Shown here: positions 4,427-5,321 of the stretch, piece by piece
How positions within the stretch are numbered: position 1 is the first letter of the stretch
Layout: each line of letters starts with the position of its first letter
Assembly (NCBI RefSeq): GCF_037081775.1
Contig: NZ_JBAMHQ010000001.1
Location: forward strand, 558,001-622,000
DNA: 64,000 nucleotides
Direction of reading: 5' to 3'
Source: Haladaptatus sp. ZSTT2
GTDB taxonomy: Archaea; Halobacteriota; Halobacteria; Halobacteriales; Halococcaceae
Made by a program: the position numbers and the translations under genes
The notes under the pieces: model-generated
What the model was told of the DNA's origin: nothing
What the model saw: the letters and a program-made list of their open reading frames with translations, nothing else
Databases searched by the model: none

Positions 4427-4843
4427 ATGAGCTCAATTGCACAACGGACTCCTGAGAGCCTGGCTCAGCGCGACCTCCAGATTTGGAACGACGGTGACGT
4501 GGATCAGCTAGACGAGATTTATTCAACCGATGCGATGTTCGTCGATGCGTTCGGAAAAGACCACGAAATCGACTCGTGGAAAGCATACCTACTGCTGATT
4601 AGAACCGCTTTCCCAGACCTCCACGTTCGCGTCATGGAATCCATCACCGAAGGCGACATGGTGGTAACACGGTTTGTGATTGGCGGGACAATGGAGGGTG
4701 AGTACCGCGGATTCAAGCCGACAGGACGGCCGTTCGAAATTCACGGACTCATCTCCCATCGTATCGAGGATGGGGAAATCGTCGAAGCGTGGAACGCGGT
4801 GAACTCGTTGGCGATACTCGAACAAGTCGGCGTGTGGGAGTAA
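4427..4843 (+). CDS. SnoaL-like ester cyclase family protein
   Basis: 138 residues with the SnoaL/NTF2 cone fold: an N-terminal helix, then LQIWNDGDVDQLDEIYSTDA, AFPDLHVRVMESITEGDMVV, and a strand ending FKPTGRPFEIHGL that is very characteristic of the predicted ester cyclase group (COG5485). Members act on small polyketide-like or unknown substrates; function in archaea is not established. No signal peptide or membrane segment. A paralogue sits at 16810-17253 on the other strand. The gene stands alone before the tRNA-Ser region. Confidence 0.82.
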   Translation: MSSIAQRTPESLAQRDLQIWNDGDVDQLDEIYSTDAMFVDAFGKDHEIDSWKAYLLLIRTAFPDLHVRVMESITEGDMVVTRFVIGGTMEGEYRGFKPTGRPFEIHGLISHRIEDGEIVEAWNAVNSLAILEQVGVWE

Positions 4844-4857
4844 CTGTCCAGCCGTCG

Positions 4858-5193
4858 GTCGAATCCCGTGGTTCACGCTTTTCACGCTCACCGAGTGCAG
4901 AGCGAATGCTCTGTGGAGGTGTTCGCGGTAAAAGGCGGTGAGAATGGGAGCGAGCGAAACCACTAGTTTCGCGAGCCACGAAGCAATCACTGATTGCTTC
5001 GGAGGGGAGCAAATCCGTTGGATTTGCGAGCTTCAAAGCGGTCTGCGACCGCTTTGGAATTTGAACTTCAGTCATTTCGCTCGCTTGCGCTCGCTTCACT
5101 CCTTAGTTCAAATCCTGCGATTCACGCTTTGCTCCTCACGGAGTGGCGAGCACACGCTACGCGGTGCTCGCCGGTGATGTTCGTCGGAAAAGG
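4858..5193 (-). repeat. Gene-free 3' flank of tRNA-Ser: duplicated unit and inverted-repeat array
   Basis: 336 bases without a credible gene. Two related units lie at about 4858-4949 and 5106-5207. Both contain TTCACGCTTT, a CTCAC-GAGTG segment, a hairpin, TGTTCG and the end block AAAAGGCGGTGAGAATGGGA. Between them are inverted repeats with unrelated stem sequences: 4954-4972, 4980-5000, 5009-5027, 5034-5056 and 5059-5113. The centres of the first four lie at 4963, 4990, 5018 and 5045, about 27 bases apart. Unit hairpins are at 4898-4913 and 5145-5172. Read from the tRNA strand, the array is the tRNA 3' trailer. It could be the scar of an integrated element or a structured RNA. Confidence 0.7.
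4930..4949 (-). repeat. 20-bp direct copy of the tRNA-Ser 3' end (att-like)
   Basis: AAAAGGCGGTGAGAATGGGA here is identical to 5188-5207, which covers the last 14 bases of the tRNA-Ser gene and its first trailing bases. The copies have the same orientation and lie 258 bases apart. A short repeat of a tRNA 3' end is what tyrosine-recombinase integration leaves, but no integrase gene lies between them. Confidence 0.6.
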
Positions 5194-5277
5194 CGGTGAG
5201 AATGGGATTTGAACCCATGAAGCCTTGCGGCTACCAGTTTTCAAGACTGGCGCATTTGGCCACTCTGCCATCTCACC
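5194..5277 (-). tRNA. tRNA-Ser (anticodon TGA)
   Basis: 84 nucleotides on the minus strand. The 7-bp acceptor stem pairs GGTGAGA (5271-5277) with TCTCACC (5195-5201), with G as discriminator base. The anticodon stem-loop is CCAGT-CTTGAAA-ACTGG, giving anticodon TGA, which reads UCA serine codons (and probably UCG or UCU by wobble). A long variable arm (TAGCCGCAAGGCTTC) follows, as expected for tRNA-Ser, and the T arm is GGGTTCAAATCCC. The 3' CCA is not encoded. The 3' flank is unusual and is described separately. Confidence 0.95.
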
Positions 5278-5321
5278 AACAGTCCGTCATACCGCGTCAT
5301 CCGATTAAGGCCTGTCGCTTT

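Follow-up and report, generated by a model that had tools for sequence, protein, structure and literature searches.

Hairpin modules behind tRNA genes of haloarchaea, as exemplified by the array downstream of tRNA-Ser(TGA) in Haladaptatus sp. ZSTT2

The 3' end of a tRNA gene is the usual attachment (att) site in archaea. Elements with archaeal tyrosine recombinases (SNJ2, pNOB8 and SSV types) target such genes. According to a review, tRNA integrases have two att sub-sites, the T-loop and the 3' end, and the att core of the haloarchaeal SNJ2 type is only ~13 bp long (PMC8371274). The region that follows a tRNA may also be a source of RNA: nearly all tRNA fragments of one study in Haloferax volcanii came from pre-tRNA 3' trailers (Heyer et al. 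2012, via PMC3544259). Here we analyse an array of hairpins located directly 3' of tRNA-Ser(TGA) in the haloarchaeon Haladaptatus sp. ZSTT2 (contig NZ_JBAMHQ010000001.1, positions 558,001 to 622,000; this whole stretch of 64,000 nucleotides is called the window). The array belongs to an apparently undescribed family of non-coding tRNA-tail modules, each of which is matched to its host tRNA.

The array and the module plan

An earlier note on this DNA had described four perfect inverted repeats with a period of ~27 bp (centres 4963, 4990, 5018 and 5045) and a fifth with 9-bp arms (5059-5113), all directly 3' of the tRNA on the tRNA strand. This layout was recovered here, with spacings of 27-28 bp and the wider fifth pair at 5059-5067/5105-5113, and arms of 7, 8 and 10 bp were as described for three of the four; the repeat centred at 4990, however, had arms of 11 bp instead of the reported 10 bp. 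Their density exceeded chance: span 4949-5060 contained four non-overlapping inverted repeats (arm of at least 7, loop of at most 6) against a mean of 0.059 and a maximum of 2 in 1000 dinucleotide shuffles, and, overlapping array spans aside, this was the densest 110-bp span of the window. Folded as the tRNA strand, the 112-nt array had z = -6.2; for the opposite strand z was -5.7. A protein-coding explanation was rejected, in line with the note, as the overlapping open reading frames were merely short, mechanical and unsupported. In Rfam 15, nothing in the array region other than the tRNA scored above the gathering score. A sub-threshold match of 29 bits (gathering 70) to the proteobacterial small RNA sX4 covered the tRNA and its trailer (5129-5291, minus strand) and is probably due to tRNA likeness only.

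The note had also stated that nothing repeats among the hairpins except their shape. This was not quite right: linkers were conserved (TC..TC around the hairpin) and one hairpin core, AAGCGGTCnnnGACCGCTT, was found again behind tRNA-Gly(GCC) of the same genome. A further feature, absent from the note, closed the array, namely an exact 20-nt direct repeat (TCCCATTCTCACCGCCTTTT) made of the 3' end of tRNA-Ser and six trailer bases (last 13 nt + CCTTTT), the two copies of which lie 257 bp apart. What had been taken for a stand-alone array is instead composite: it is built of modules that carry copies of the 3' end of the tRNA and are gained or lost whole. It comprises a type I core and a type III hairpin chain ending in a copy of tRNA nt 61-73. 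The direct tRNA copy of the window is split into a T-loop part (5056-5066) and an acceptor part (4937-4949) with the chain in between.

These types were defined from tRNA trailers at large. Modules were non-coding and measured ~65-260 nt overall. Type I units were uniform (90-140 nt) and displayed, in this order, a tail hairpin, an inverted copy of host T54-65, a hairpin with tandem G.A mismatches and a direct copy of host nt 53-73. Many trailers of the same genome followed this plan as a tail hairpin, inverted T-arm GGATTTGAA, nnAGGGAGC - variable hairpin - GCGACCG, and a copy of their own 3' end. Type III modules ended in a copy of host nt 61-73; their chains carried a 19-nt palindrome with changing stems directly ahead of this copy, flanked by TC..TC in 21 out of 29 cases. 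The last hairpin of the window array (hairpin 4) is such a palindrome with TC..TC flanks, immediately ahead of the tRNA copy. In some modules (trailers L179, L184, L186 and L324) a type II core, GCCnGACGAGTCGCAG..GACCGTCTCGGC, stood in place of the AGGGAGC..GCGACC hairpin. Short type III units of 65-80 nt were encountered at L314, L249 and L191, where the 3' strand of the acceptor pairs with an inverted acceptor copy; this is the same direct-plus-inverted principle as in type I.

Host-matched copies, sharp borders, unit gain and loss, and a selected fold

Within three congeneric genomes (G000, the source genome, G001 and G002), 50 out of 131 tRNAs displayed downstream copies of their own end (74 copies, at least 11/12 nt) and none displayed an upstream copy, while the tRNA-swap control yielded 0.00-0.10 copies per genome. 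The type I modules numbered 104 and came from 16 isotypes, some false pairs returned by a fuzzy module finder having been filtered out before counting; all 20 host nt (54-73) were matched in 48 of the copies. The direct copy has sharp borders: its identity to the host was 0.96-1.00 from G53 to N73, but only 0.31 at nt 51 and 0.65 at nt 74. Since copies had been located through nt 62-73 and type I assigned through nt 54-58, the unbiased part of this result is the identity at nt 53 and 59-61 together with the drop outside 53-73. The inverted arm fitted its own tRNA at nt 62-65 in 291 out of 416 cases (permuted mean 167, maximum 199 in 1000 permutations) and fell to chance at nt 66-67, which places the end of the match at the T-stem border. 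Where hosts differ by A or G at nt 57, both the direct and the inverted copies followed the host. Similarity was 0.722 among modules of one family located at different tRNAs, slightly above the 0.705 for modules at the same tRNA in different families.

Congeneric species differed by whole units, located precisely where the tRNA ends. tRNA-Ser(GGA) shows this most clearly: G000 and G002 are empty, the trailer running straight on as TTTTCT(G/C)CAACGCAACAC, while G001 carries a 203-nt insertion that ends in a copy of the 3' end and is followed by the same trailer. This distribution, with a precise empty site in two of the three genomes, needs one insertion or two losses. Similar whole-unit differences were seen at Leu(UAA) (an additional 106-nt unit in G000), Gly(GCC) (345 nt more, or two units, in G001), Arg(GCG) (alternating units among the congeners), Arg(CCU) and Lys(UUU); these cases do not fix the direction of change. 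At the tRNA-Ser(TGA) of the window itself, G001 displayed two units and G002 no copy, the flank in G002 being too diverged for an exact junction. The relic of a second module in the window was similar, by eye, to the tail of the second module at the congener locus L009.

The earlier note had suggested selection on pairing while stem sequences differ, and two observations support this. Compensatory changes were found in 112 distinct related modules, where the proposed pairing scored 0.267 for covariation (0.124 after shuffling), well above slid versions, and held 165 double-change cells while shuffles had 50; and 19-nt palindromes with different stems occupied the same place in many tRNA trailers. 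Inner pairs, which are not copied from the tRNA, varied in step (C-G 84 / U-A 26; G-C 77 / A-U 20), and two tandem G.A mismatches of the module hairpin were nearly invariant. The covariation supports selection on a single-strand fold. A single strand that folds would naturally have G.A on both arms, unlike a symmetric double-strand site. With TC..TC on the tRNA strand, the G.A of type III hairpins lies on the strand opposite the tRNA. The folded strand consequently differs between type I and type III, and DNA sites fit this better than one transcript.

Distribution among haloarchaea

A covariance model of the core (R1) was built from 12 seeds, all from tRNA trailers of the source genome; two sequences of the seed alignment (A2) carried one-base edits (one base added in Tyr, one removed in Gly), which affected the model seed alone, and the later alignment (A4) was made of unedited sequence. 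The window core scored 47.9 bits (E 7.8e-9; G000:C1:563055-563117). Each of the 20 matches in the source genome (E<=0.011) had a tRNA of its own strand no more than ~230 nt upstream; in one case this was the intron-bearing tRNA-Trp. This linkage is partly circular, as the seeds were taken from trailers, yet no strong match was found elsewhere in that genome.

Matches (E<=1e-4) were obtained in 264 out of 292 haloarchaeal genomes (~90 %) and in 73 out of 77 genera, with up to 19 modules in one genome; an ARAGORN tRNA stood just upstream on the same strand for 26 of the 29 best new loci. In a sample of 120 genomes from the phylum, 15 out of 19 haloarchaea matched, as opposed to none of the 101 other genomes. 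A 16-mer scan of genome contigs gave just chance bacterial matches among the matches listed, and 13 viral matches of the same 16-mer were judged by their length to be chance. Modules are tied to tRNA genes and, within this phylum sample, restricted to Halobacteria. At one place of the source genome a module stood between two tRNA-Asp genes 396 bp apart (L003 1450-1920; G000:C1:1999926-2000394), and the stretch ahead of the second gene repeats the 3' end of tRNA-Asp, which suggests that the module may have served to duplicate the gene as well.

Table 1. Features of the tRNA-Ser(TGA) region (window positions).
Feature	Position	Strand	Basis
tRNA-Ser(TGA), host gene of the modules	5194..5277	-	ARAGORN; Rfam RF00005 (61.6 bits)
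Direct repeat, first copy: last 13 nt of tRNA + CCTTTT	5187..5206	-	identical over 20 nt to 4930-4949
Direct repeat, second copy: tRNA nt 61-73 + CCTTTT, module end	4930..4949	-	sequence; unit end at +258
Whole module, 257 nt, type I core + type III chain	4937..5193	-	from tRNA nt 73 to end of copy
Tail hairpin, 9-bp arms	5145..5172	-	inverted-repeat search; the majority of listed module tails have such a hairpin
Type I core, with inverted T-arm copy, G.A hairpin and partial T-arm copy	5055..5117	-	covariance model R1
Outer core arm: inverted copy of the tRNA from nt 54 on (GGATTTGAACT, tRNA strand)	5105..5115	-	pairs with 5059-5067
Partial direct copy of tRNA T-loop, GTTCAAATTCC	5056..5066	-	sequence; model match
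Array hairpin 1, 10-bp arms	5034..5056 (5034-5043/5047-5056)	-	core also in tRNA-Gly(GCC) trailer
Array hairpin 2, 8-bp arms	5009..5027 (5009-5016/5020-5027)	-	inverted-repeat search
Array hairpin 3, 11-bp arms, 1-nt centre	4979..5001 (4979-4989/4991-5001)	-	inverted-repeat search
Array hairpin 4, 7-bp arms	4954..4972 (4954-4960/4966-4972)	-	inverted-repeat search
Second-module relic: tail, hairpin 4898-4903/4908-4913, relic inverted T-arm GGGATTCGACC (4857-4867)	4857..4929	-	by eye

Two further observations concern genes of the window. A small gene (4427-4843), SnoaL-like by eye and convergent to the tRNA, lies between the tRNA and an ATP-grasp gene; it looks like an insertion or replacement, as the tRNA region adjoins the ATP-grasp start in G001 (L009) and G002 (L010). 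Another protein of the window is ~70 % identical to the histidine ammonia-lyase of Haloferax and Halobaculum, which marks the DNA as haloarchaeal.

Origin of the modules and comparison with known systems

We propose, with a probability of roughly 45 %, that the modules are miniature att-flanked elements at tRNA 3' ends which are moved by recombination and whose hairpins act as folded recognition sites. Recombination between copies of the tRNA 3' end would insert, duplicate and excise modules, either through a tyrosine recombinase acting at the T-loop or 3'-end sub-site or through recombination of direct repeats. The hairpins would be recognised in folded single-strand form. Both copies would stay matched to the adjacent tRNA through gene conversion from it, a process that is plausible in polyploid haloarchaea. 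The start points of the two types of copies coincide with the two known att sub-sites of tRNA integrases. A more specific form of the proposal, possible but held here only tentatively, is that Halobacteria have a dedicated recombinase which reads G.A hairpins in their folded form and can insert or excise host-matched modules at almost every tRNA. If true, the modules would be mobile or regulatory DNA of a new kind, anchored to tRNAs and without coding capacity. Genes with a Phage_integrase domain were present in all three congeners. One long protein with this domain (frame of ~660 amino acids) was found in G000 (G000:C1:1452308-1452790) and G001 (G001:C1:1189684-1190166) with similar scores and profile range, and possibly has a counterpart in G002; it is a candidate for a link with the modules.

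Several points weigh against such mobile elements. No recombinase could be tied to the modules and no integrase lies inside the 257-nt module. The core was found in none of the viral contigs, phages and plasmids examined, which leaves the modules without a known carrier. The family effect on similarity is small. Deletion by homologous recombination, rather than insertion, could be behind presence and absence of units. The covariation and the conservation of the G.A motifs suggest that the modules are more than debris and have a function, possibly at the RNA level.

The main rival, which we consider rather unlikely, is a structured RNA trailer transcribed with the tRNA, its hairpins taking part in 3' processing, transcript stability or small trailer RNAs, with recombination making copy number drift and selection acting on the RNA. 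The strong covariation fits this as well, as do the G.A motif of type I cores and tails on the tRNA strand, the better folding of tails on this strand (68 out of 94) and the trailer-derived fragments of Haloferax volcanii. G.T exchanges, however, did not significantly exceed A.C exchanges in the stems (17 against 8 in the inner helix, p 0.11; 18 against 19 in the outer helix), type III hairpins have their G.A on the other strand, and the unpaired copy nt 66-73 match the host no less exactly than the paired nt do, although pairing in an RNA would not require this. The first two of these points also leave the plain chain of RNA hairpins in one trailer, one of two readings in the earlier note, unsupported. 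Debris of classical integrative elements, that is old attR/attL of viruses or plasmids with the coding part deleted, would suit the position of the modules, duplications that stop at the tRNA end and the short SNJ2-type core (PMC8371274). This is nevertheless improbable: uniform type I units, a core present in 73 genera and up to 19 modules per genome are unexpected for debris, the core was detected in no viral contig, phage or plasmid, and an SNJ2-type virus attP as module source was rejected, since the attP region of pleolipovirus HHPV4 displayed a short match to a tRNA-Met end and no module.

Insertion by a Cas1- or casposase-like enzyme beside the tRNA, with target-site duplication and the newest units nearest the tRNA, would account for exact copies at any tRNA. 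It has very little probability, given duplications of 21 and ~13 nt, an inverted copy that would be left unexplained, and the absence of PF01867 from all three congeners while the control Haloferax volcanii scored. That the hairpins are ordinary terminators of transcription, or arise by chance in GC-rich DNA, agrees with their location downstream of a gene, and is by far the least probable account. As a full explanation this is refuted by the copies of the tRNA end and by an inverted-repeat density far beyond shuffles; class-wide conservation also stands against it, and no T-run directly follows the array hairpins as read from the sequence (the criterion of intrinsic terminators).

Recombining att-flanked elements or not, the modules combine features that are of wider interest: a sequence that follows its host tRNA in a direct as well as an inverted copy, and units gained and lost with precision at the site where archaeal genomes most often take up integrating DNA. 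They bear on tRNA 3' ends as integration hot spots, on recombination guided by single-strand structure in archaea and on the processing of pre-tRNA trailers. No description of them was found in open-licence full texts, although older or closed literature may hold one; to this extent the note's statement that no named family has such a layout holds, and we treat the family as one in its own right.

Compared with known systems, the modules resemble the SNJ2, pNOB8 and SSV types in the direct repeat of the tRNA 3' end, which extends from a T-loop or 3'-end sub-site to nt 73, the intact tRNA, precise empty sites and tandem occupation. They differ in being ~65-260 nt long, non-coding, present behind many tRNA genes per genome and not found in viruses or plasmids, and in having a structured core that is conserved, together with an inverted T-arm matched to the host. 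With casposons and CRISPR arrays they share insertion at a fixed site, here the tRNA 3' end, its duplication and new units nearest the tRNA, but they lack Cas1 in the three genomes, have a longer duplication and an inverted host copy, and their inserts are structured instead of unique. The fragments from Haloferax volcanii trailers come from the same place, 3' of the mature tRNA, and were described as RNA fragments only. Variable stems, conserved shape and strand-marking mismatches are shared with integron attC sites, REP/BIME sequences and the end hairpins of IS200/IS605, as would be expected if the modules too were read in folded single-strand form. In contrast to REP/BIME, modules are not dispersed intergenically (all matches with E<=0.011 in their own genome lay behind tRNAs, 12 of these modules being the seeds), and in contrast to all three systems, they are always located at tRNA 3' ends and no linked recombinase or Y1 transposase was identified, no search for Y1 (RAYT) having been made. 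Unlike integron attC, they showed no cassette-like genes in their units, the integron integrase not having been specifically searched.
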